A stretch of 44,934 bases of DNA from Oscillospiraceae bacterium (GTDB lineage: Bacteria > Bacillota > Clostridia > Oscillospirales > CAG-272). Each line of letters begins with the position of its first letter. Positions within the stretch are counted from its first letter, which is position 1. Shown here in pieces: positions 332-39,154 of this stretch. A program made the translations under genes and the position numbers. The notes under the pieces were generated by a model. That model searched no databases and had not been told where the DNA came from. It saw only the letters and a list, made by a program, of their open reading frames with translations. Location: contig SVTP01000019.1 of NCBI GenBank assembly GCA_015063725.1, forward strand, positions 1 through 44,934, given 5' to 3'.

Positions 332-395
332 TGCGGGGGAACCTTTTTCGCGAAAAAGGTTCCCCCGCACCCCTTCCAAAAAGCACTCGCACGAA
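332..395 (+). repeat. Three-arm hairpin repeat, copy 1 (TTTTTCG type)
   Basis: A perfect 38-bp palindrome at 332-369 (half-site TGCGGGGGAACCTTTTTCG) is followed by a tail containing CCCCTTCCAAAAAGCACTC. It lies 16 bp after the nifJ stop, palindrome side toward the gene. Related copies lie at 3651, 18272, 19573, 30311, 32007, 34365, 35109, 37381 and 38273. The tail resembles the mirror image of the right arm. Confidence 0.9.
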
Positions 396-3364: not shown

Positions 3365-3712
3365 GTTTGCGATAGTCGTTTGTTTTCGGGACGTCGAAGG
3401 CGCCGTCCCCTACCGGTTATTGTTTGCTCTCTATAATTTCTTAATTCTCGGACCGTCGAGGACGCCGGTCCCTACAAGGAAAAACAAAAATTTTGTAGGG
3501 ACCGACCTCCCGGGCGGTCCGTGTTACCGCGCAACAACTCTCTTATTTTGTAGGGTCTCGGTGGCCCCTACAAAATTGCGACAGCCAAAGCGAGGTTCCA
3601 CCTCGCGTCGACTGTCTATCCGTTTGTTTGGAGTTTTCTTTTGATATTTTTGTTAGAGAGTTCTTGAAAGGGGCGTGGGGGAAACTTCTTTTAAGAAGTT
3701 TCCCCCACATAA
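3365..3712. repeat. Intergenic repeat mosaic ending in three-arm hairpin copy 2
   Basis: This gap holds no gene. It contains GTAGGG-type hairpins at about 3388-3415, 3450-3475 and 3494-3522; a composite unit from about 3549 (GTAGGGTCTCGGTGGCCCCT, then AGCCAAAGCGAGG) that matches 38170-38235 closely; and the three-arm hairpin at 3651-3708 (reverse orientation, arm GTGGGGGAAACTTCTT, tail CTTGAAAGGGG on the left). The palindrome ends 18 bp from the nagA stop. The two composites at 3549-3708 and 38170-38329 are nearly the same ~160-bp unit, both downstream of minus-strand genes. Confidence 0.8.
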
Positions 3713-3726
3713 AATTCGTTCTTCAA

Positions 3727-4893
3727 TTAAACAATCTGCTTTCCTCTAACGAAAACGTGTTGCATGTTGATGTTCTCGTCGAAGATGACGATGTCGGCAT
3801 CCTTGCCGGCGTCGAGGGTTCCCTTGGTGGAGCACTTTGCCATCTTGGCGGGTGTTTCGGAAGCCATCTTAACGGCATCCACGAGGGGGATGCCTGCGGC
3901 AACCATGGTGCGCACAAGGCGGTCGGTGGTAGCAACGCTGCCTGCGAAGGCTTGTCCGTCGAGCATCCAAGCCACGCCGCGCTCTATGCGGCAAGGAAGT
4001 CCGTTATCAAGCTTTCCAAGAACGGTCTCGATGCCCTCGGGCATACCTGCACCGCGCATAGCATCGGTAACGAGGGCGGTTCTGTCCGCTCCCTTGAGCT
4101 TGTAGACCATTTGCAAGAGCTCGTAAGGCAGGTGCATGCCGTCGGCAATGATCTCTACAGTGATGTCGTCCGAGAGATATGCGGCTTCGATTGCGCCTGC
4201 AATACGCATACCGTTAACTCTTTCTACACCCTTCATGCAGGAGTAGAAGTGCGTCATGTGCGTGTAGCCGTTCTCGGCTGCCTCCAGCATTTGGCGGCAG
4301 TTAGCATCGGTGTGCGCAGCGGCAACAGAAATGCCGCGCGCGGTGAGCGCCTTTGCAAAGGCATAGCCCTTGTCGCGCTCGGGAGCAACGCTCCAACGAA
4401 CGATGTCGTCGGTTGCATTGAGAAATCTCTCGTACTCTGCGGGATCGGGATCACGCACGTAGCGAGGATCCTGCGCACCCTTTTGCGAGAGGGCGAAATA
4501 GGGACCTTCCATGTGCAGACCGATAAAGTCGGAGCCGAGGCGGTCCTTTTCTTTGATCGCCTTGTAGGAACGGAACATCTCAAGCGTAGCTTCAAACTCG
4601 CCCGAGGTTGCCGTAGGACACATAGCGGTGGTGCCGTGCTTTGCATGGAATGCAGCCGCGCCTTCGAATGCTTCCTCTGTTCCGTCGAGGAAGTCGTATC
4701 CGCCGCCGCCGTGCAGGTGCAGATCAATAAAGCCTGCCGAGACGTAGTTGCCCTTGGCATCGATTACTTGGTCGGGCATGCCGAGCTTTTCGGCTTCGCA
4801 GGGACAAAGGATCTTGCCGTCGGCAAACCAGAGTTCGCCCTCGGTGATCTTGCCGTCCTTAATGATGCGGCCATTGATAATTTGTGTCATCAT
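3727..4893 (-). CDS. nagA: N-acetylglucosamine-6-phosphate deacetylase
   Basis: A 388-residue amidohydrolase that removes the acetyl group from GlcNAc-6-phosphate, giving glucosamine-6-phosphate and acetate in the cytoplasm. The metal-binding HLHG is at 59-62, HMEGPY with the metal ligand Glu129 at 127-132, AAHTDA with His194, THFYSCMKG with His215 and the catalytic-base region TDAM with Asp277. Length matches the family (~380). The start overlaps the end of the nagB-like gene by 4 bp (ATGA), so the two are translationally coupled in one minus-strand operon. The downstream product of this step is the substrate expected for its neighbour. A three-arm hairpin repeat sits 18 bp after the stop and may end the transcript. 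Confidence 0.95.
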   Translation of the reverse strand: MMTQIINGRIIKDGKITEGELWFADGKILCPCEAEKLGMPDQVIDAKGNYVSAGFIDLHLHGGGGYDFLDGTEEAFEGAAAFHAKHGTTAMCPTATSGEFEATLEMFRSYKAIKEKDRLGSDFIGLHMEGPYFALSQKGAQDPRYVRDPDPAEYERFLNATDDIVRWSVAPERDKGYAFAKALTARGISVAAAHTDANCRQMLEAAENGYTHMTHFYSCMKGVERVNGMRIAGAIEAAYLSDDITVEIIADGMHLPYELLQMVYKLKGADRTALVTDAMRGAGMPEGIETVLGKLDNGLPCRIERGVAWMLDGQAFAGSVATTDRLVRTMVAAGIPLVDAVKMASETPAKMAKCSTKGTLDAGKDADIVIFDENINMQHVFVRGKQIV

Positions 4894-16796: not shown

Positions 16797-16837
16797 AATA
16801 CCAACGAATACCAAAATCGAGATTGGAGGCTACGAAT

Positions 16838-18265
16838 ATGAGTAAGCAACAAAAAATTGAATTTGGTACGGGCGGATGGCGCGGCATCATTGGTGACGAT
16901 TTTATCAAAGCCAACGTGCAGCGCGTGGCGTATGCCGTTTGCCGTTTGGCTCGTGAAGAAGGAAAGACCGACCAGCCCATTGTGATCGGCTATGACCGCC
17001 GCTTTTTGTCGGAGATCTCCTCTCGCTGGATCGCAGAGGTACTGGCGGCGCAGGGCATTGCATCTATCCTGGTCAATCGCTCCACCCCCACGCCGCTGAT
17101 CATGTTTTTGACCGAGCATCACAAGCTGCACTACGGTCTTGAGGTGACAGCAAGCCACAACCCCTCTGCCTACAACGGCATCAAGCTGATCGTAGAGGAA
17201 GGCCGCGACGCACCTTTGGAGACTACCGCGCGCATGGAAGCGCTCCTTGCGGAAGATGCCGACCTTGATATCCCCACCCTTTCCATCAAAGAGGGAGAGG
17301 AAAAGGGGCTCGTCTCCTACATGCACGCGCCCTTTAACGATTTTATCGATCACATTCTCTCCAAGCTCAACCAATCTGTTATCAAGGAGCGCGGTCTGCG
17401 CATCCTCTTTGACCCCATGCACGGCTCGGGTATTTATCCCATCACCGTCATTTTGCAAACGCTGCGCTGCACGGTTGACCTGATCAACGACAACAAGGAC
17501 GCCTACTTTGGCGGCGGCATTCCCGCGCCCACCGAGTCTCGCCTGTACGATCTGCGCAACCACGTGGTTGCAGGCGGTTATGACCTTGGCATCGCCTTTG
17601 ACGGCGACGGCGACCGCTTGGGCATTGTGGATGAGAACGGCAACTACATTGATGCCAACCAGATCCTTTGCCTGCTCTACTACTATCTGCACGCGCACAA
17701 GGGCTGGAAAGGTCCCGTTGTACGCAACCTTGCCACCACGCACATGCTTGACAAGATCGCCGCATCCTTTGGCGAGGAATGTCACGAGGTCCCCATTGGA
17801 TTTAAGTATATTTCCGCAGGCATTGACCAATACGATGCAGTCCTCGGCGGTGAGTCCTCGGGCGGCTTGACTGTTCGCGGACACATTCACGGCAAGGACT
17901 CTATCTATGCCGCTTCCCTCTTTATCGAGATGGTCTGCGCACTCGGCTCTCCCACCAAGATGCTGCGCGAGCTGGAAGACCGTTTTGGCACTCATGAGAT
18001 GGTGGAAGCCAACCTCGAGTTCCCTGCCGAGCGCAAGCCCGAAATTCAAAAGACCTTGATGGTTGACAAAAAGCTCCCCGACTTTGATGCCGACGTCGTT
18101 CGCGTCAGCTACGAGGACGGCTGCAAGGTCTATTTCTCGGATGATTCCTTCGTCATTTGCCGCTTCTCCGGCACCGAGCCTCTGCTCCGCATCTTTGCCG
18201 AAGCATCCGACGCCGCCCGCGCCGCGGCTTATATTACACCGTTTAGAAAGTTGTTAGATATTTGA
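16838..18265 (+). CDS. alpha-D-phosphohexomutase (phosphoglucomutase/phosphomannomutase)
   Basis: A 475-residue enzyme interconverting sugar 1- and 6-phosphates. The four family loops are present in order: catalytic phosphoserine TASHNPSAYNGIK (~104-116), metal loop DGDGDR (~260), sugar-specificity loop GGESSGG (~342) and phosphate loop FSGTEPLLRIFAE (~451). GESSGG in the third loop is shared by phosphoglucomutases and by PGM/PMM bifunctional enzymes, so glucose or mannose specificity is not decided. The start at 16838 has GGAGG 9 bases upstream; a TTG at 16823 in frame lies inside the ribosome site and is rejected. Consensus-like promoter at 16768-16796. A three-arm hairpin begins 6 bp after the stop. 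Confidence 0.93.
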   Translation: MSKQQKIEFGTGGWRGIIGDDFIKANVQRVAYAVCRLAREEGKTDQPIVIGYDRRFLSEISSRWIAEVLAAQGIASILVNRSTPTPLIMFLTEHHKLHYGLEVTASHNPSAYNGIKLIVEEGRDAPLETTARMEALLAEDADLDIPTLSIKEGEEKGLVSYMHAPFNDFIDHILSKLNQSVIKERGLRILFDPMHGSGIYPITVILQTLRCTVDLINDNKDAYFGGGIPAPTESRLYDLRNHVVAGGYDLGIAFDGDGDRLGIVDENGNYIDANQILCLLYYYLHAHKGWKGPVVRNLATTHMLDKIAASFGEECHEVPIGFKYISAGIDQYDAVLGGESSGGLTVRGHIHGKDSIYAASLFIEMVCALGSPTKMLRELEDRFGTHEMVEANLEFPAERKPEIQKTLMVDKKLPDFDADVVRVSYEDGCKVYFSDDSFVICRFSGTEPLLRIFAEASDAARAAAYITPFRKLLDI

Positions 18266-18271
18266 GGATTT

Positions 18272-18535
18272 GTGGGGGAAACTTCTTGCAAGAAGTTTCC
18301 CCCACACCCCTTTCAAGAACTCTCGCACAAAAAATCTATAAAAATAAGTCGTTAGTGTACTGACGGACGGGCGGCGCGAGGATAAACCTCGCTTTGGCTC
18401 TCGCAAGAAATCAGGGGCCACCGAGACCCTGCTTTCTAGGAAACTTGTTTTGAGGAGAAACGGACCGCCGGGGACGTCGGTCCCTACAAAAAATTTAATA
18501 TTCACCGTAGGGGCGACCATTGGTCGCCCGTTTTT
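18272..18535. repeat. Three-arm hairpin copy 3 with attached repeat mosaic
   Basis: 18272-18305 is a perfect 34-bp palindrome (half-site GTGGGGGAAACTTCTTG), followed by the tail ACCCCTTTCAAGAACTC. After it come the composite units GCGCGAGGATAAACCTCGC (about 18374), GAGACCCTGC (about 18422), GGACCGCCGGGGACGTCGGT (18461) and GTAGGGGCGACCATTGGTCG (about 18508-18530). The whole 264 bp is non-coding repeat material. Confidence 0.85.
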
Positions 18536-19572: not shown

Positions 19573-19630
19573 GTGAGTGCTTTTTTGAAGGGGTGCGGGG
19601 AAACTTTTTTCGCGAAAAAAGTTTCCCCGC
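19573..19630 (-). repeat. Three-arm hairpin repeat, copy 4 (six-T variant)
   Basis: A perfect 36-bp palindrome at 19595-19630 (half-site GCGGGGAAACTTTTTTCG), with its tail on the left. The arm has six T where other copies of this type have five, and the tail likewise has six A (minus strand CCCCTTCAAAAAAGC). It lies 17 bp beyond the thiN stop. Confidence 0.9.
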
Positions 19631-19647: not shown

Positions 19648-20289
19648 TCAATCCATACTCTCAATAATCCAAGCTCCGCCGCGTTTGATCTCAATGAGGG
19701 CACAGTTGCCCACGATCTCGTTTGAGACCGCCCACTGGTTGCGGCGCAAGATGCGGCCGTTTTTGAGGGGGTACTTGCAGCCGTCGAGGGTGATACCCTT
19801 GACCGTTTCGTCGGCTGCGATGAGCGAGAAAAAGCGATACTGCGAGCGCGGCAGAATAGTGCCGCCATTGCGGATAAAGCGCACGCGGTTTTTGCCGTCG
19901 GTGAGGATGGCAAAGATGCGCCCCTCCTTGCGCTCCCACAAATCCTCAAGAATGGCGAGGGTGGAGAGCGTGTGATCGATGCGACCGCTCATTCCGCCAA
20001 CGATGGTGATCTCTTCCGCTCCGCGCTCGATGGCAACCTTGACGGCAAGCTGCGTGTCGGTGTCGTCCTTCTCACGAGGGACGCGCAGACACTCCACACC
20101 GTCGGGGATGTTCTCCTCACCGAGGGTGTCAAAGTCACCAAGGACAACGTCGGGCGTGATGCCCAAGCGACGGGCAGTCAGGTATCCCGCATCGGCGGCG
20201 ATGACAAGGGCGCCTACCTCGGGTTTTTCGGTTAGGTATTCGTCAAACACGGTGCCGCCCGTGTAAATAAACGCTGTTTTTCGTTCCAT
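19648..20289 (-). CDS. thiN: thiamine pyrophosphokinase
   Basis: A 213-residue enzyme that makes thiamine diphosphate from thiamine and ATP. The catalytic N-terminal domain shows AADAGYLTARRLGITPDVVL, GDFDTL and DDTDTQLAVKVAIERG, followed by GGMSGRIDHTLSTL; the C-terminal ~70 residues are the small beta domain (GITLDGCKYPLKNG) that binds the vitamin. Thiamine diphosphate is the cofactor of the pyruvate oxidoreductase and transketolase in this window. In many Firmicutes this gene follows rpe and rsgA; here it stands alone with hairpin repeats on both sides. The start has a weak ribosome site (AGGAGTGCAATATG). Confidence 0.93.
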   Translation of the reverse strand: MERKTAFIYTGGTVFDEYLTEKPEVGALVIAADAGYLTARRLGITPDVVLGDFDTLGEENIPDGVECLRVPREKDDTDTQLAVKVAIERGAEEITIVGGMSGRIDHTLSTLAILEDLWERKEGRIFAILTDGKNRVRFIRNGGTILPRSQYRFFSLIAADETVKGITLDGCKYPLKNGRILRRNQWAVSNEIVGNCALIEIKRGGAWIIESMD

Positions 20290-30294: not shown

Positions 30295-30310
30295 TAAGAA
30301 AAGAGATTTT

Positions 30311-30830
30311 GTGGGGAAAACTTCTTGCAAGAAGTTTTCCCCACGCCCCTTTCAAGAACTCTCTGACAAAAGGTCTAAAAATAGGCTCACTACTACACTA
30401 ACAGACAGACGACGCGCATCACGAGGATGCGCTTTTGCTACCGCTAACGGTCAGGTAGCGAAGCGGCGCGAACGTAATGAATGACAGTCCGGTGGACTGT
30501 CAGAACGTTAAGTTGCCGCAGGCAACTTTTGTGACACGAGCCGCAGCGAGACCCTCCAAGACCCTGCCCGTTAGGAGAGTAGAAACACAACAAAGGGATA
30601 GCGTATTTGCTATCCCTATTATTGTGTCTTGGTAGGGGACGGCGCCTCGACGTCCCGAAAACAAACGCACATCGAGAATAAACGCGGGAGGCGAAACGCC
30701 TCCCCTACAATCAATTTTTATGTTTTCGTAGAGGAGGGGTCTCCCCTCCCGCAACAAAACCAAACAACCTTTGTAGGGGACGACGTCCTCGACGCCCCGC
30801 CTCTAACGATAATAACCAAATAAAAAATCA
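30311..30830. repeat. Large repeat mosaic beginning with three-arm hairpin copy 5
   Basis: 30311-30344 is a perfect 34-bp palindrome (half-site GTGGGGAAAACTTCTTG) with tail CCCCTTTCAAGAACTCTC. It is followed by composite units (AGACGACGCGCATCACGAGG near 30403, CAAGACCCTGCCCGTTAGGA near 30557), an AAGGGATAGC hairpin at 30592-30620 and GTAGGG-type hairpins at about 30631-30656, 30683-30712, 30727-30752 and 30773-30802. No gene in these 520 bases. This is the only three-arm copy not beside a stop codon. Confidence 0.82.
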
Positions 30831-31399: not shown

Positions 31400-31984
31400 A
31401 TGAAAGATCAGCAGATACTAATTAGTGACTTGTTAATTTTGCTTCTCGTCCTTGTTGTTATTGATGTTATTTGGAACTTGATAATGGCAAAGGCGATGGA
31501 AAAGATTGCCCGCCAAAAGGGGTACGGTGAGGAATTTAATTGCTTTATGATATGCTTTTGGCTTGGTATGATCGGTTGTCTCTATGTAATCGCTCTGCCC
31601 GACCTGAAGCAACGCGAGCAGCTTGACAGAATTATCGAGCTATTAGATCCACAGACGCCCACGAGTCCGCCCCAACAGGATGTTGTTTGGAAAATGCAAA
31701 AATTGCCCTCTGTTACATCCAAAAAGGATGGCAGTGCCGAGGCATATCTCCGCGAGGTTGGAATGACGCCCGAAGAATATTCCTGCAAATCCTTGGCTGT
31801 TTTTGGGGAAGATTCCGTCGGCGAATGTGAGATGTGCAAAAAGACACAAAAAACAAGAAAGCACTGCGGCATTAGAAGAAACAACACATTCAGCAACATC
31901 TCTGTTTGCGCCGATTGCATCAACGTGTTTGCAGAATACAATCCTAATGCGGTCTTTGATCTGGAAATCAAGAAACCAAACTAA
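31400..31984 (+). CDS. membrane protein with two CxxC pairs, function unknown
   Basis: A 194-residue protein. Two hydrophobic segments lie at about 8-30 and 47-67; then a linker with a Pro-rich stretch (PQTPTSPPQQD), an amphipathic part (AEAYLREVGMTPEEYS) and a C-terminal module with Cys143-x-x-Cys146 and Cys170-x-x-Cys173, likely binding zinc or another metal on the cytoplasmic side. I do not recognise the family. Start at 31400 follows AAGGACAG; it begins 16 bases after the RNA terminator, so its own promoter must lie inside or just after the RNA gene, or it depends on read-through. A three-arm repeat follows 22 bp downstream. Confidence 0.72.
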   Translation: MKDQQILISDLLILLLVLVVIDVIWNLIMAKAMEKIARQKGYGEEFNCFMICFWLGMIGCLYVIALPDLKQREQLDRIIELLDPQTPTSPPQQDVVWKMQKLPSVTSKKDGSAEAYLREVGMTPEEYSCKSLAVFGEDSVGECEMCKKTQKTRKHCGIRRNNTFSNISVCADCINVFAEYNPNAVFDLEIKKPN

Positions 31985-32006: not shown

Positions 32007-32095
32007 CGTGAAAGTTCTTGAAGGGGGTGCGGGGGGAACTTCTTTCAAGAAGTTCCCCCCGCATTCTCTCCAAAAACTTTTCTCTCAAAGTAAGT
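32007..32095. repeat. Three-arm hairpin repeat, copy 6 (tails on both sides)
   Basis: A 34-bp near-perfect palindrome at 32029-32062 (arm GCGGGGGGAACTTCTT) has the usual tail on the left (minus strand CCCCCTTCAAGAAC) and a second tail-like stretch on the right (CTCCAAAAACTTTTCTCTC). The arm has two A between G and C runs and the left tail has two T, again matching. Confidence 0.85.
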
Positions 32096-33576: not shown

Positions 33577-34344
33577 ATGAATCCTGCAAAAAGAAGAACT
33601 GTGATTGCCGGCAACTGGAAGATGAACTTCACTCCTGCCGAGGCAACTGCGTTTATCAACGAAATCAAGCCCATGGTTGCAGGCAAAGACAACTGCGACA
33701 TCATCTTCTGCGCTCCCTTTGTTACCATCGCGGCTGCGCAAGAGGCTGCCAAGGGCTCTAACATTCAAATCGGCGCCGAGAACGTTCACTTTGCTGAAAA
33801 AGGCGCTTACACCGGCGAGGTATCTGCAAAGATGCTGACCGCTTGCGGTGTGGAATACGTTATTATCGGTCACTCCGAGAGACGTCAATATTTTGGCGAG
33901 ACCGACGAGACCGTTAACCTGCGCACCAAGGCTGCTCTCGCTGCCGGCATGAAGGTTATCCTTTGCCTGGGCGAGGTAAAGGAGCAACGTCTTTCCGGCA
34001 TCACCGACGAGGTGGTTGCTATGCAGACCAAGCTCGACCTGCAAGGTGTTTCCGCCGAGGAAATGAAGAACGTTATCATCGCTTACGAGCCTGTTTGGGC
34101 AATCGGTACAGGACTGACCGCCACTCCCGAGCAAGCCGAGGAGACCTGCGGCGTTATCCGCAAGGTCCTCGCTTCGATGTACGGCGCAGACGTTGCCGAG
34201 TCCGTTACCATTCAATACGGCGGTTCGATGAACGAAAAGAACGCAGCTGAACTGCTCGCAAAGCCCAACGTGGACGGCGGCCTCATCGGCGGCGCTTCCC
34301 TCGTTGCAGAAAAATTCACCGCTATTGTTGACGCGGCTCAATAA
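33577..34344 (+). CDS. tpiA: triosephosphate isomerase
   Basis: A 255-residue TIM barrel interconverting glyceraldehyde-3-phosphate and dihydroxyacetone phosphate. Active-site residues are visible: Lys15 in GNWKMN, His99 in IIGHSERR and Glu171 in AYEPVWAIGTG; the phosphate-binding GG is in DGGLIGGASL. It lies downstream of pgk as in many Firmicutes; gapdh and gpmI, often next to them, are not in the window. GAGAGGAAATTGAC precedes the ATG. A three-arm repeat begins 20 bp after the stop. Confidence 0.97.
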   Translation: MNPAKRRTVIAGNWKMNFTPAEATAFINEIKPMVAGKDNCDIIFCAPFVTIAAAQEAAKGSNIQIGAENVHFAEKGAYTGEVSAKMLTACGVEYVIIGHSERRQYFGETDETVNLRTKAALAAGMKVILCLGEVKEQRLSGITDEVVAMQTKLDLQGVSAEEMKNVIIAYEPVWAIGTGLTATPEQAEETCGVIRKVLASMYGADVAESVTIQYGGSMNEKNAAELLAKPNVDGGLIGGASLVAEKFTAIVDAAQ

Positions 34345-34364
34345 TTTTTGACAGAAAAGAGATT

Positions 34365-35170
34365 GTGGGGGAACCTTTTTCGCGAAAAAGGGTTCCCCCA
34401 CACCCCTTCCAAAAAGCGCTCTAACAAAAGGTCTAAAAATAGAGTTGTCAGCGCACTAACAGACGGACGGCGCGAGGGTAACCCTCGCTTTGGCTCTCGC
34501 AAACGGTCAGGCACCTCCAAGACCCTGCCCGTTAAGAGAGTTGTTTGCCATTGGCGCGGACCGTCGAGGATGCCGATCCCTACAAGGGCAAACATAAATT
34601 TTGTAGGGACCGGCCTCCCGGACGGTCCGAGAAAACGAAAAATCTCTGCAAATAAAGGCGGGCGACCAATGGTCGCCCTACGGTTATTATGAAATTCATT
34701 GTAGGGGCGACCAGTGGTCGCCCGCTTTTTGTAAACGATAACCGTTTATTTTCGGGACGTCGTGGGCGCCGTCCCCTACGATAAATTTTATTATATATCG
34801 TAGGGCGGGGGCTTGCTCCCGCCGCTTTTTACGGGACGTCGAGGGCGCCGTCCCCTACCAAGATACAATAATAGGGATAGCAAGTATGCTATCCTTTTAT
34901 TTTTATTCATGGGCTCTCAACTTTCTGAGCGGATAGGGTTAGTGGGTCTCGCTGCGGCTCGGTCACGCTCACGTTCTGACAGTCCACCGGACTGTCATTC
35001 ATTACGCTCGCGCCGCTTCGCTACCCAGCCGCTTGCGAGAGCAAAAGCAAGTCACGGACTTGCGTCGCCCGTCTGTCCGTATCTTTGGGGTGAATTCTTT
35101 TTCTTTTTGTGCGAGTGCTTTTTGGAGGGGGTGCGGGGGAACCCTTTTTCGCGAAAAAGGTTCCCCCGCA
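34365..35170. repeat. Largest repeat mosaic: two three-arm hairpins (copies 7 and 8) facing each other
   Basis: This 806-bp gap has no gene. Copy 7 (34365-34427, arm GTGGGGGAACCTTTTT, tail CCCCTTCCAAAAAGCGCTC) follows tpiA by 20 bp. Copy 8 (35109-35170, inverted, arm TGCGGGGGAACCCTTTTT) precedes the ThyX-like stop by 11 bp. Between them lie GCGCGAGGGTAACCCTCGC near 34470, CAAGACCCTGCCCGTTAAGA near 34519, GTAGGG-type hairpins at about 34557, 34601, 34660, 34700, 34754, 34799 and 34831, and an AAGGGATAGC hairpin at 34871-34900. The plus gene and the minus gene converge here. Confidence 0.85.
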
Positions 35171-35181
35171 TCATCTACCAA

Positions 35182-35805
35182 TCACTCCCTAATACAAATC
35201 CATTCGGCGGCGCAGGGGAGAGATTCGATCCAGTCGCAGAGGGTGTGCCACTCGGCGAGCTTGTGGGTGCGGCGCGCGTAATAGATGTTAATGAGGTTTT
35301 CGTAGTTAAGCGTAACGGTACGCATTTGGTTGTAAGAGGACGGCAGCATTTGGATCATATTGTGCCAGCTTTGGCGGTCCTCTTTGTTCTCAAGGAACTT
35401 TTGGCGTTCGCACTCGAGGTAGTCGATGATGGCATCGAGCAGATTGAGTCCACCCTCGTCGAGGCGGTCGTGCGAGAAATCGTCGCGAGAAAATTCCTTG
35501 GCGTGGATCTTGTGCATGGTCGAGGTAGAGTTGGCAACGGTGCCGACCTTGTAGGTGTCAAACTCCTTCCACCAATACAGGGGCGCGGTGATGTCAACAG
35601 AAACGAACACCTGACGCAAAAACTTGCGATGGTCGCTGCCTGCAACCGCCAAGCGGTGACCAAAATCAAGGTCGGCGGCGCCGATAATAAACTTGCCGTT
35701 CTCGTCATAGGTGCTATCCGACTTTGCCCAGCTGTTCATGGGGTTGCGTGCGCCACGGATGGCGTTGTCGATATTCATAACGGATGTGCGTTCCACTTTC
35801 AGCAT
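35182..35805 (-). CDS. ThyX-like protein of unknown function
   Basis: A 207-residue protein of a family widespread in Clostridia and their phages that I associate with flavin-dependent thymidylate synthase (ThyX) by its HRKFLRQ and STSTMHK region; AIRGARNPMNSWAKSDST, ITAPLYWWKEFDTYKVGTVAN and LPSSYNQMRTVTLNYENLINIYYARR are its hallmark stretches. The strict ThyX motif RHR-x7-S is not seen intact, so thymidylate synthesis is doubtful. The ribosome site is GGAGG and the promoter at 35838-35866 is near-perfect (TTGACA-17-TATACT). A three-arm repeat lies 11 bp beyond its stop. It stands alone, divergent from the antiporter. Confidence 0.65.
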   Translation of the reverse strand: MLKVERTSVMNIDNAIRGARNPMNSWAKSDSTYDENGKFIIGAADLDFGHRLAVAGSDHRKFLRQVFVSVDITAPLYWWKEFDTYKVGTVANSTSTMHKIHAKEFSRDDFSHDRLDEGGLNLLDAIIDYLECERQKFLENKEDRQSWHNMIQMLPSSYNQMRTVTLNYENLINIYYARRTHKLAEWHTLCDWIESLPCAAEWICIRE

Positions 35806-36011: not shown

Positions 36012-37367
36012 ATGTTTTACGAACAATTTGCAGGTGCGTTCTCCGAGGGTGGCAGCTCCCAGGTTCTGTTTGGTCTGGCGCTGGCACTGTTTATGGGATT
36101 GCTGCTCTCCCGTTTTGCAAAGCCCTTGGGACTTCCCGCCGTTACGGGATATTTGATTGCAGGCGTGCTGATCGGTCCTTACGGTCTTGGCGCGCTTGGC
36201 ATTACAGGTGTATTTTCGAACGCCGAAATGATGAAAGGCACCGGCGCGATCGTGCAGGACGTTGCCCTCGGCTTTATTGCGTTTGCCATTGGCTCGGAGT
36301 TTAAGCTCTCCTCGCTCAAAAAAACAGGACGTCAGGCAGCCATTGTCGGTTGTGCGCAAGCAATTGTGACCATGCTGGTGGTCGACGGCGCGCTGATCGG
36401 GCTTCACTTTATCCTTGGGGAAGAAGTGCTCCCTCTCTCGGTTGCTATCACACTTGGCGCAATCGCTACTGCGACCGCTCCTGCGGCAACCATGATGGTC
36501 GTGAAGCAATACAAGGCAAAAGGTCCCCTGACCAGTCTGCTTTTGCCTGTTGTTGCACTTGACGACGCAGTTGGTCTTGTTTGCTTTGCGGTTTCGATGG
36601 GTATTGCCCAAGCGCTGGAAAGCGGTGCAGAGGCAGTTGGCATCGTTTCCCTTTTGATCAATCCCCTGTTAGAGGTTCTTCTTTCGTTGGTACTCGGCGC
36701 TCTTGCCGGTTGGTTGCTCTCGGTGGTTGAGGATCACTTCCAATCCAACAGTAAGCGTCTTTGTATCACTCTGACCTTTGTGCTCCTCACGGTTGCTCTG
36801 GCACAGATGGAATTCCATCTTCCCTTTGGCATTGAGATCGCTTTCTCAAACCTTCTCGTTTGTATGATGATGGGTACACTCTTCTGCAATATTTGTGATA
36901 GCGCGGATGAACTCATGGAAAAGACCGATAAATGGACAATGCCCGTGCTCATTCTCTTCTTTGTATTCAGCGGTGCGGAGCTTGACCTGAGCATCTTCGG
37001 CTCGCCGATGATCATTCTCATTGGTGCGGTTTACGTGCTCTTCCGCGCGCTTGGCAAATACGTAGGCGCGGCAAGCAGCGCAAAGCTCTCCGGATGCCGC
37101 AAATCGATTGTCAAATACCTCGGTATCACACTCTTCCCGCAGGCGGGTGTTGCTCTTGGAATGTCTGCCATTGCAGGTGCGCTCCTCGCGGAAGGATACA
37201 TCGTGCGCAATATCGTGCTCTTTGGTGTGTTGGTATATGAATTAGTAGGTCCTATGCTGACAAAGATCGCCCTGACAAAAGCAGGCGATATCGTTCCCAA
37301 AGAAGAAGCACACACCCACCACACCTTGGCAGAAGTTTTTGCCGACGACGTGGATGATGAGGAGTAA
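36012..37367 (+). CDS. cation:proton antiporter, CPA2 family
   Basis: A 451-residue membrane protein with about 12 hydrophobic segments from residue 18 onward. LGLPAVTGYLIAGVLIGPYGL is the typical first motif of the KefB/NapA-like CPA2 exchangers, and LDDAVGLVCFAVSMG holds the transport-site Asp pair in the fifth-sixth helix region; LGATATATAPAATMMVV-like glycine/threonine-rich segments (GAIATATAPAATM) precede it. It should exchange Na+ or K+ for H+ across the membrane. The short cytoplasmic tail is His-rich and acidic (EEAHTHHTLAEVFADDVDDEE), without a TrkA domain. Own promoter, own downstream repeat; single-gene unit. Confidence 0.9.
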   Translation: MFYEQFAGAFSEGGSSQVLFGLALALFMGLLLSRFAKPLGLPAVTGYLIAGVLIGPYGLGALGITGVFSNAEMMKGTGAIVQDVALGFIAFAIGSEFKLSSLKKTGRQAAIVGCAQAIVTMLVVDGALIGLHFILGEEVLPLSVAITLGAIATATAPAATMMVVKQYKAKGPLTSLLLPVVALDDAVGLVCFAVSMGIAQALESGAEAVGIVSLLINPLLEVLLSLVLGALAGWLLSVVEDHFQSNSKRLCITLTFVLLTVALAQMEFHLPFGIEIAFSNLLVCMMMGTLFCNICDSADELMEKTDKWTMPVLILFFVFSGAELDLSIFGSPMIILIGAVYVLFRALGKYVGAASSAKLSGCRKSIVKYLGITLFPQAGVALGMSAIAGALLAEGYIVRNIVLFGVLVYELVGPMLTKIALTKAGDIVPKEEAHTHHTLAEVFADDVDDEE

Positions 37368-37380
37368 ATTTTAAAAGATT

Positions 37381-37442
37381 GCAGGGGGAAACTTTTTAAG
37401 GAAAAAGTTTCCCCCTGCACCCCTTTCAAAAACTTTTGAACA
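37381..37442 (+). repeat. Three-arm hairpin repeat, copy 9 (AAAAA variant)
   Basis: Palindrome at 37381-37418: arm GCAGGGGGAAACTTTTT, loop AAGG, then the complement. Tail CCCCTTTCAAAAACTTTTG. The arm run is TTTTT and the tail has AAAAA, unlike the AAGAA copies. It begins 13 bp after the antiporter stop. Confidence 0.88.
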
Positions 37443-38149: not shown

Positions 38150-38329
38150 CTAAACAACTTTCTTATTTTGTAGGGTCTCGGCGGTCCCTACAAAATTGCG
38201 GTAGCCAAAGCGAGGTTTACCCTCGCGTCGTCCGTCTGTTAGTGCACTGACAACTCTATTTTTAGACCTCTTGTTAGAGAGTTCTTGAAAGGGGTGTGGG
38301 GGAAACTTCTCGAAAGAAGTTTCCCCCAC
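38150..38329 (-). repeat. Composite repeat with three-arm hairpin copy 10
   Basis: Matches 3542-3708 in order: GTAGGGTCTCGGCGGTCCCT, then AGCCAAAGCGAGG, CGTCTGTTAGTGCACTGACA, TAGAGAGTTCTTGAAAGGGG and the palindrome at 38296-38329 (arm GTGGGGGAAACTTCT). The palindrome ends 9 bp from the ylmH stop. Confidence 0.85.
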
Positions 38330-38338
38330 ATTTTCATT

Positions 38339-39154
38339 CTAAACTAACTGGTCTGCTCTCAAACGCAGTCTTCCCTTTCGGGTTTCTCCGTCGAAGGAGC
38401 GCAGGACGAAGCGTCCGTGGCCGCGAACAGAGACGGTAATGGGCGGTGTGAGAACGGCATCGACGCGTTCCTCGGGCTCGAAATCGACCTCAACCAGACC
38501 GCTGCGCACGGCGTTTTGCGCCGCCTCACGCGAGAGGTTGCAGAGTGCGGCAACCACGCAGTCAAGTCGCGGAGATGCGACGGTATCACTGACGGGACGG
38601 TACTGCTTGCCGTCGGTGAAGGTTTCGTCAAGGGTACACTCGCGGCAGCGGACGGTATCCGCGCCAACCTTGGTCAGCTCCCCCATCAAAAATCCTGCGA
38701 GCGTGCGGGGGCAAAAGAGGATGGCACTGTGCGCGTCTTGCACGGCAATGTCACCAATGGCATCTCGCTCGATGCCAAGCCCCAAGATAGCACCAAGATA
38801 ATCGCGGTGCGACAGATTGCGAAAGCCGCTGCCCTTGATAGAAAGCGACACGACCGCATCGGTCAGCTCCTCGGCAAGACAGTCAAAGAGAGCCGCCTCG
38901 CGCGCGGTAGCATCCTCGGGCAGGATGGCAGTCAGGTAGTCGGGCAAGAGAAACAGACACACCCTCTCGGCGGTGCTGTGCCCTCCCCAAAACCAATACG
39001 CATCCTGCAGTCCACGCGCATCCAGCATCCGTTCGGCGCGGCGGCGCTGGCGCATGGTCAAAAAAGGAATGTGCGCAACGCTCCCCGAGGTGCATTTGCG
39101 AATGGCATCCTCAAGTCGCGCTTCAAACAGGTCACGCGTGTTCTCTGTCCCCAT
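38339..39154 (-). CDS. ylmH: YlmH-family RNA-binding protein, S4 domain
   Basis: A 271-residue protein of the division-cluster YlmH family. The N-terminal part has the alpha/beta domain (IPFLTMRQRRRAERMLDARG, FWGGHSTAERVCLFLLPDYL); the C-terminal S4 RNA-binding domain reads LDCVVAALCNLSREAAQNAVRSGLVEVDFE and ends GRFVLRSFDGETRKGRLRL. In Bacillus YlmH helps clear peptidyl-tRNA from stalled ribosomes and affects division-gene expression. Start at 39154 overlaps the YggT stop by one base (TAATG), indicating coupling; GGAGGT lies about 10 bases upstream. A longer in-frame reading to 39244 runs inside yggT and is rejected. Confidence 0.9.
   Translation of the reverse strand: MGTENTRDLFEARLEDAIRKCTSGSVAHIPFLTMRQRRRAERMLDARGLQDAYWFWGGHSTAERVCLFLLPDYLTAILPEDATAREAALFDCLAEELTDAVVSLSIKGSGFRNLSHRDYLGAILGLGIERDAIGDIAVQDAHSAILFCPRTLAGFLMGELTKVGADTVRCRECTLDETFTDGKQYRPVSDTVASPRLDCVVAALCNLSREAAQNAVRSGLVEVDFEPEERVDAVLTPPITVSVRGHGRFVLRSFDGETRKGRLRLRADQLV

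Follow-up and report, generated by a model that had tools for sequence, protein, structure and literature searches.

A mirror-tailed hairpin at gene ends of gut Clostridia without detectable Rho: a candidate terminator with a proposed alternate-strand triplex core

Introduction

Judged by the main text of Holder et al. 2015 (PMC4666352), the closest known systems to the element described here are the PIT, BoxC and TM-ECO intrastrand triplex motifs of E. coli and its relatives. They are short, multi-copy and intergenic, and they are built from three consecutive segments of one strand, a hairpin and a third strand in mirror order, with a 3-nt second loop and canonical triads. According to the same text, these purine-motif triplexes form one class of homopurine/homopyrimidine motif with 9-nt stems, and in E. 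coli they favour neither one strand orientation nor any specific distance from genes. The terms alternate strand, strand switch and junction are absent from that main text. Recognition of a hairpin by a third strand on purine tracts of its alternate strands has been proposed from in vitro work; the complexes, as PMC3660596 presents them, are synthetic and peptide-dependent, with other strand polarities in the model.

At gene ends the relevant comparison is with intrinsic terminators, in which a strong hairpin shortly past the stop codon is followed by a U-tract, and with REP-type hairpins that stabilise RNA 3' ends. The latter are described in a 2026 cyanobacterial study (PMC13289151) as GC-rich hairpins without a U-tract near gene ends, and their ends are ascribed there to trimming after Rho termination. 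The same study, in its account of another Rho-less bacterium, describes many transcript ends without the features of intrinsic terminators.

Here we analyse an element present in ten copies in the window, by which we mean the whole stretch of 44,934 nucleotides that was examined. As in the PIT and TM motifs, a hairpin is followed on the same strand by a third segment in mirror order. The element differs from them in that the putative third strand switches between the stem strands, that stem types vary and covary with the tail, and that orientation and distance are fixed in most copies, the site being the gene end. Its layout is read from natural covariation, unlike that of the in vitro alternate-strand triplexes. 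From intrinsic terminators, whose strong hairpin near the stop codon at the ends of transcription units it shares, it differs in what follows the hairpin, which is CCCC and the mirror tail in place of an immediate U-tract.

Results

All ten copies claimed in a preliminary description of the window were located at the positions given there, off by at most 1-2 bases. On the plus strand, copy 1 has its hairpin at 332..369 (arm GGGGGAACCTTTTTCG), 15 nt past the stop codon of the gene at 2-316, and its mirror tail at 370..384 (CCCCTTCCAAAAAGC). Copy 3, from which the preliminary description started, lies 5 nt past the stop codon of a phosphoglucomutase/phosphomannomutase gene (16823-18265), with the hairpin at 18271..18306 (arm GGGGGAAACTTCTTG) and the tail at 18307..18320 (CCCCTTTCAAGAAC). 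The hairpin of copy 7 (34364..34402, the right arm longer by one G; tail 34403..34417, CCCCTTCCAAAAAGC) begins 19 nt past the stop codon of the triosephosphate isomerase gene (33601-34344), and that of copy 9 (37380..37419, arm GGGGGAAACTTTTT; tail 37420..37433, CCCCTTTCAAAAAC) 12 nt past the stop codon of a sodium/hydrogen exchanger gene (36012-37367). Copy 5 (hairpin 30310..30345; tail 30346..30359, CCCCTTTCAAGAAC) has no same-strand stop codon before it, the upstream gene being divergent. On the minus strand, copy 2 (hairpin 3674..3709, arm GGGGGAAACTTCTT; tail 3660..3673, CCCCTTTCAAGAAC) follows the stop codon of an amidohydrolase-like gene (3727-4893), copy 4 (19595..19630, arm GGGGAAACTTTTTTCG; tail 19579..19593, CCCCTTCAAAAAAGC) that of a thiamin pyrophosphokinase gene (19648-20289), copy 8 (35132..35170, again with one extra G in the right arm; tail 35117..35131, CCCCCTCCAAAAAGC) that of the gene at 35182-35805, and copy 10 (38295..38330, arm GGGGGAAACTTCTT; tail 38281..38294, CCCCTTTCAAGAAC) that of a YlmH-like gene (38339-39154), all four genes being on the minus strand. 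Copy 6 (hairpin 32028..32063; tail 32014..32027, CCCCCTTCAAGAAC) lies between two plus-strand genes, with no same-strand stop codon before it. Copies 5 and 6 enclose a gene at 31484-31984; searched against Pfam as a potential transposase, it gave no match.

The relation between arm and tail is easily seen in copy 3 (18271-18320, plus strand), in which the left arm is TGTGGGGGAAACTTCTTG, the right arm is its reverse complement and the tail is CCCCTTTCAAGAAC. When complemented without reversal, the tail reads GGGGAAAGTTCTTG, which is the left arm from the G-run on, one G shorter and with a single change, the C at the purine/pyrimidine junction to G. Apart from small differences in run length this rule holds for 10 of 10 window copies. 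The links drawn earlier between arm and tail types stand: five copies join a CTTCTT arm to a CAAGAAC tail and three a TTTTTCG arm to an AAAAAGC tail, the copy at 19595 has six T in the arm and six A in the tail, that at 37380 has the CAAAAAC tail, and that at 32028 has AA in the arm and TT in the tail. Small mismatches occur in the copies at 35132 (one T in the tail for two A), 19595 (two T for three A) and 30310 (three T for four A).

Across the collected copies the hairpin is perfect or near-perfect, mostly of 14-18 bp, and its arms run G/A and then C/T; the purines thus switch strand, and the stem is not of the single homopurine/homopyrimidine class of the PIT and TM motifs (classes I-IV). 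A turn of about 3 nt, overlapping the closing pairs of the stem, leads into a tail of 12-16 nt that is a mirror match of the hairpin as far as the apex, followed by a short pyrimidine stretch. Right arm and tail form a mirror repeat around a 3-base centre, and read on the complementary strand the tail is the arm in reverse, the junction C, which becomes G, excepted. In all copies taken together the C+T block of the tail is usually one base shorter than the G+A block of the arm. Directly 3' of the hairpin stands CCC or CCCC rather than the U-tract of an intrinsic terminator. Downstream of the tail T makes up 74-79% at three positions in 112 copies from other genomes; these are mostly runs of at most 3 T, a run of at least four occurring after the tail in 5 of 91 own-genome copies and 22 of 112 others. 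In some relatives (loci L171, L107 and L245) a further hairpin lies immediately downstream and has the tail as its left arm, CCTTTCAAAAATTTTTGAAAGG being an example, and this further hairpin could sequester the third strand.

The preliminary description had proposed that the association of arm and tail be compared with a shuffled-pairs null. From the own genome and its relatives 139 copies were gathered by a mechanical filter, which required a G-run close to the base, a loop no longer than 12 and CCC after C[AG]. Two of them, from the opposite strands of a single palindrome (L117, arm CGGGGATTTTCT), have the look of chance hairpins and were retained; on more loci the same filter gave 151 rows. 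The tail fits its own arm with a self score of 12.48 against 9.77 (sd 0.13) for shuffled arm-tail pairs in 5000 shuffles, z=21, and the mirror z is still 19.9 with the junction rule left out. A direct-repeat reading, which amounts to antiparallel pairing, reaches z=9.4 and is outscored by the mirror in 137 of the 139 copies. Since 24 of the 139 rows resisted parsing into runs, the run correlations rest on the remaining 115: rho is 0.81 for A-run against T-run and 0.94 for the C-runs at the junction, and only 0.37 for G-run against C-run (0.72, 0.90 and 0.35, respectively, over 63 unique combinations). A G occurs in the tail of 37/37 copies with an internal C in the arm and 4/78 copies without one, or 14/14 and 4/49 among the unique combinations.

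The covariation is thus stronger than had been reported, and it extends to other genera. When 27 further genomes of the family, from 18 genera that do not include the window's, were each represented by a single copy, and the copies were found by a profile blind to which tail belongs to which arm, the mirror gave z=9.5, the antiparallel complement 3.4, plain reversal 1.9 and a direct copy -2.0. In an assumption-free scan of 918 hairpin sides, to be read as a contrast and not as a rate since the loci were mostly picked for carrying the element, a mirror score of 10 was reached by 149 sides (99 without the junction rule), and the same score by 15 in the antiparallel, 5 in the reversed and 1 in the direct reading.

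The earlier statement that the tail cannot pair antiparallel with the arm stood only in part. Over 6-7 bases the tail can pair with the arm on its loop side, since AAGAA and AAAAA are the same in either direction; the antiparallel reading is second best because the loop-side blocks are nearly symmetric. Long asymmetric arms settle the order in favour of the mirror, and on these antiparallel pairing was rejected. At the tpiA end of genome G026 (L170) the 23-base arm GTGGAAAAAGGGGAAACTTCTTG stands with a complement of the tail reading TGGAAAAAGGGAAAGTTCTTG / TGGAAAAAGGGAAAGTTCTTGG, which scores 18.8 as a mirror and 9.0 as antiparallel, and in G001 the arm GAGAGGGGAGAAACCTTTTT stands with GAGAGGGGCAAAACTTTTT (13.0 versus 7.0). 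Mirror order is also kept in L240 (CTTCCTG to GTTCCTG) and L234 (CTTCTTTG to GTTCTTTG), and the asymmetric arm of L096 likewise agrees with it.

An intramolecular triplex, which the preliminary description had suggested, fits the mirror covariation, its spread across genera, the long asymmetric arms and the fading of the match past the apex. It had been drawn on the written strand, where a C of the arm facing a C of the tail at the junction had to be accepted as a constant exception. On the complementary strand that exception disappears, the same position being G over G-C, a canonical triad. The strands also differ in the loop-side purines that they offer, those complementary to the left arm in the template-strand hairpin and those of the right arm in the written-strand hairpin. 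Among copies with unequal arms in the loop-side half, the tail agrees with the left arm in 19 and with the right arm in 2 (15 and 2 over distinct pairs; p=0.0002); a looser count gives 29 to 4 with 2 ties. Because the junction letter is canonical there and the loop-side tail follows the left arm, the complementary strand is favoured, and the triplex is probably on the template strand, complementary to the message. The base half has no preference (3 left, 4 right, 4 ties; 9 to 11 with 6 ties in the looser count), which neither strand model predicts, the template-strand model expecting the right arm. Copies whose arms differ in both halves or have no clear junction divide into 3 left, 3 right and 2 ties. 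G-T mismatches in the stems do not significantly outnumber A-C mismatches in an even-handed scan (17 to 9, p=0.17), and U-tract hairpins show no bias either (12 to 18); earlier counts were 37 to 16, with an extension favouring G-T, and 28 to 13, with hairpins from the same filter, and the assignment of the strand makes no use of any of them.

A letter code was counted for the third-strand letters over the 5' arm, read on the complementary strand, in 181 elements. These had been chosen by their mirror score, as had those of the loop analysis below and part of those examined for asymmetric arms, so that none of these sets is a test of the mirror as such. G goes to G in 651/663 columns, T to T in 786/796, internal C to C in 84/96, junction C to G in 206/224 aligned columns, and A to A in 376/445 and to G in 59/445; as an example, CCAC of L232 is read as GGTG on the complementary strand. 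If the tail is a third strand, the code is one of purine-motif triads over the G/A half and pyrimidine-motif triads over the other half, the A-to-G columns excepted, and the predicted crossing point is G over G-C, again canonical. Some details count against a triplex. The A-to-G columns, in the base half, give no canonical triad unless run lengths slip, and T over A-T, a combination permitted in the purine motif, is seldom found (7/445 base-half A columns), the alignment score behind the A columns disfavouring both G and T over A. In 146 four-base loops the match extends to the first loop base (z=11.6), which was likewise counted against the model; from the first loop base to the first base of the right arm it is weak (2.5 to 3.9) and beyond that near zero. 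In 32 three-base loops it stops where the stem stops.

The placement of the element was determined with genes called by a hexamer gene finder, which replaced an ORF-length caller that had put 13 copies inside ORFs. The upstream gene is on the same strand in 108 of the 139 copies, on the opposite strand in 27 and not in view in 4, and in 95 of the 108 the element starts 4-24 nt past the stop codon, so that a stable hairpin follows a stop as in intrinsic terminators. The 27 copies after an opposite-strand gene, with 13 more at over 30 nt from the stop, count against a terminator. For the window together with ten 20-kb stretches of its genome, the distance from the stop codon is 0-19 nt for 12 elements, resembling that for U-tract hairpins (median 9 nt, quartiles 3.5 and 20.5, n=47). 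The preliminary description had missed both this gene-oriented placement just past stop codons and the alternation with ordinary terminators described next.

At orthologous ends of tpiA, the phosphoglucomutase-family gene and the sodium/hydrogen exchanger, judged over a 140-nt span, 15 of 78 carry the element, 39 a U-tract hairpin, 10 another hairpin and 14 none, and none carries both; a further five were too short. The U-tract class was relaxed to admit hairpins whose stem runs into the T-run, and classes were assigned automatically, the tpiA end of G008, with a mirror-like tail by eye, being scored as hairpin only. At convergent ends of the own genome (window and ten stretches) 8/41 have the element, 27/41 a U-tract, 6 neither and none both. 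For the window alone the figures are 7/12, 4 and 1 neither; for the ten stretches, picked without regard to copies and lying on large contigs poor in them, they are 1/29, 23/29 and 5 neither, and this rarity was counted against the terminator explanation. The element was found in 0/141 short co-directional gaps (four sets) and, as a control, on the antisense side of 0/296 gene starts, where a looser U-tract class gave 22/296. The element thus alternates with hairpin-plus-U terminators at gene ends, never both in the sets tested. Two convergent gene pairs of the window have one element per gene (34364 with 35132, 37380 with 38295); therefore one element seems not to serve both directions, and the element seems to act one way. 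A third pair, 332 with 3674, is 3.4 kb apart with possible weak genes in between.

Searches for Rho gave no match to its RNA-binding family (PF07497) in any of 35 genomes of the genus and none to the full-length protein (TIGR00767) in 196 genomes of the family, 116 of which are at least 90% complete. It was found neither in the own genome nor in 8 others of the order in a class-wide sample, 202 of whose 245 genomes have it; in control searches the two models matched in 9 and 8 of 14 known genomes. As no Rho was found in the family, the ends of the element are unlikely to be trimmed products of Rho termination. Gene ends would therefore need such cis signals or another factor.

To follow the element among genomes a covariance model was built from 41 copies; its E-values are rough, and larger searches were run under stricter filters. 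In the 1.85-Mb own genome it gave 104 matches at E 1e-6 or better, some of them the opposite strand of the same palindrome. Counting the own genome where it belongs, matches occur in 29/35 genomes of the genus and 4/245 of the class-wide sample; in the family they occur in 100/196 genomes and 47/71 genera. One class-sample match, G367, is of the same order and another family; its seven loci contain, at the match or close to it, four distinct copies with mirror tails. The other two are single loci in which the scan found no mirror-tailed copy. The four copies of G367 are near-identical (L261-L265, arm GGGGGAGACCCTTTTG) and keep the mirror outside the junction and not in it. G001, of the same genus as the window, has no model match and still contains two mirror-tailed copies of another arm type, CGCGAGAGGGGAGAAACCTTTTT, in 100 kb (L279, L281); the model therefore undercounts, and arm types extend beyond those it covers. 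Searching named genomes by pattern returned 19 stretches, whose titles all describe them as metagenome-assembled Oscillospiraceae, Clostridiales or Clostridia and, where they name a source, give goat, roe deer and water buffalo caecum. At gathering score Rfam yielded only two tRNAs in the window and no family for the element; its best match in 1400-1800 of L006 was 17.3 bits against a cut-off of 90.

In the own genome the copies are dense on small contigs (ten on this 45-kb contig) and rare on contigs over 80 kb, perhaps through assembly breakage at repeats or through a real regional bias. A motif like GACGGACGGCGCGAG occurs in the 300 nt past the tail start in 46 of 75 own-genome copies, 44 of which have it at 55-59 nt; small hairpins often come next, with an end AAGAGAGTTGTT that by eye could pair with AACTCTC after the tail. 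This downstream unit, seen in the window at about 18360-18450, 34460-34560 and 3500-3616 and also in L004, L006, L024 and L026, looks like a larger structured repeat or MITE bearing the element, and it has no Rfam family. Another palindromic repeat, CGACCAATGGTCGCCC...GGGCGACCAGTGGTCG, lies at about 34660-34720 of the window and in other intergenic regions, and a unit like TAGGGGACGGCGCCNTCGACGTCCC also recurs between genes.

Discussion

At the ends of many genes in these uncultured gut bacteria the element seems to be a substitute for the usual transcription stop signal. The explanation that we put forward, tentatively and at somewhat less than even confidence, is a one-way Rho-independent transcription terminator whose core would be an alternate-strand intrastrand triplex. 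In its wider form, which is possible but rather doubtful, the element would represent a new class of bacterial terminator, spread through gut Clostridia of a family that lacks detectable Rho; three-stranded DNA of the template strand would take the place of the U-tract, as a natural alternate-strand triplex with three coevolving strands. We infer a third strand from the covariation, and also its location on the template strand and the job of termination. On the template strand, the tail would fold into the groove of the hairpin, read the G/A half of one arm antiparallel (G.GC, A.AT), cross the groove at the junction as G over G-C, and read the other arm parallel in its A/G half (T.AT, isolated C+.GC). 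By conjecture, transcription would yield an RNA hairpin that holds the message off the template; the freed template might then fold back and pull the tail segment from the RNA-DNA hybrid behind RNA polymerase, and breakage of the hybrid would release the transcript, the role that the U-tract has elsewhere.

What has to be weighed against a template-strand triplex is above all a triplex in the nascent RNA, the main rival, in which the tail would lie in the groove of the RNA hairpin and either pull the U/C stretch from the polymerase or guard the 3' end of the message from exonucleases. Orientation and distance past stop codons are fixed in most copies, the RNA hairpin is strong (-31.5 kcal/mol, z -5.84 for the fold of one copy), other genomes have a short T stretch past the tail, and the base half, with C/U parallel to G/A, would be a pyrimidine motif, possible for RNA according to the main text of PMC4666352. 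Its weak point is the loop-side half, which would need the purine motif that RNA cannot form in that same account, and in which the tail follows the left arm and not the right; the junction, C over C-G, would not be canonical either. We therefore regard an RNA triplex as unlikely, though worth serious attention. Classical H-DNA, with right arm and tail as a mirror repeat in duplex DNA and no need of a hairpin, would account for the mirror repeat and its 3-base centre. It expects the tail to follow the right arm in both halves, whereas the loop-side half follows the left, and the palindrome is kept in the collected copies; we consider it very improbable.

A history without any third-strand contact is also conceivable, in which a mobile or recombining 3'-UTR repeat of REP or MITE kind has few subfamilies and the arm-tail match is due to descent. 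The high copy number would suit it, as would the longer downstream unit common to 46/75 own-genome copies and, by eye, the change of type that the closely related genomes G000 and G007 show at their tpiA and PGM gene ends. Mirror covariation spans many arm types and 27 genomes from 18 genera, which speaks against descent, as do the fixed orientation and distance in most copies, unlike those of the E. coli triplex motifs, and the fact that a U-tract hairpin never stands beside the element in the ends judged; to our knowledge, moreover, templated copying cannot produce a mirror image. The prospects of a mobile repeat as the whole explanation are accordingly poor. Least probable, along with H-DNA, is a switch between two hairpins, with tail and left arm as alternative antiparallel pairs: the antiparallel self score does exceed that of shuffles (z=9.4 in 139 copies, 3.4 in 27 genomes) and the loop-side tail follows the left arm, but the mirror outscores it in 137/139 copies and in asymmetric arms, by which it was already disfavoured, and the G/A half would pair only with its block order swapped. 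Replication that copies in mirror form, once offered as an explanation of the covariation, is not needed, selection on a third strand explaining the data, and no support for it was seen; we know of no templating that makes a parallel complement.

REPs are not known to have a mirror tail. Their ascription to trimming after Rho termination (PMC13289151) also sets them apart from the present element, in whose family no Rho was found. Searches of the open-access literature turned up neither a description of the sequence nor one of a triplex terminator, and the single match to the letters of the element was a virus paper.

A natural triple helix would be expected to betray itself by three segments covarying in mirror order, a pattern read here from many genomes and not from one oligonucleotide. 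With the letter code found (G to G, A to A, T to T, C to C, junction C to G), a few point mutants would suffice to test the question. If the proposed terminator is real, triplex DNA would gain a defined, orientation-dependent job in living cells, a job for which the studies summarised in the main text of PMC4666352 give no evidence in the case of the E. coli motifs, and the element would show how a lineage without Rho can end its transcripts without U-tracts.
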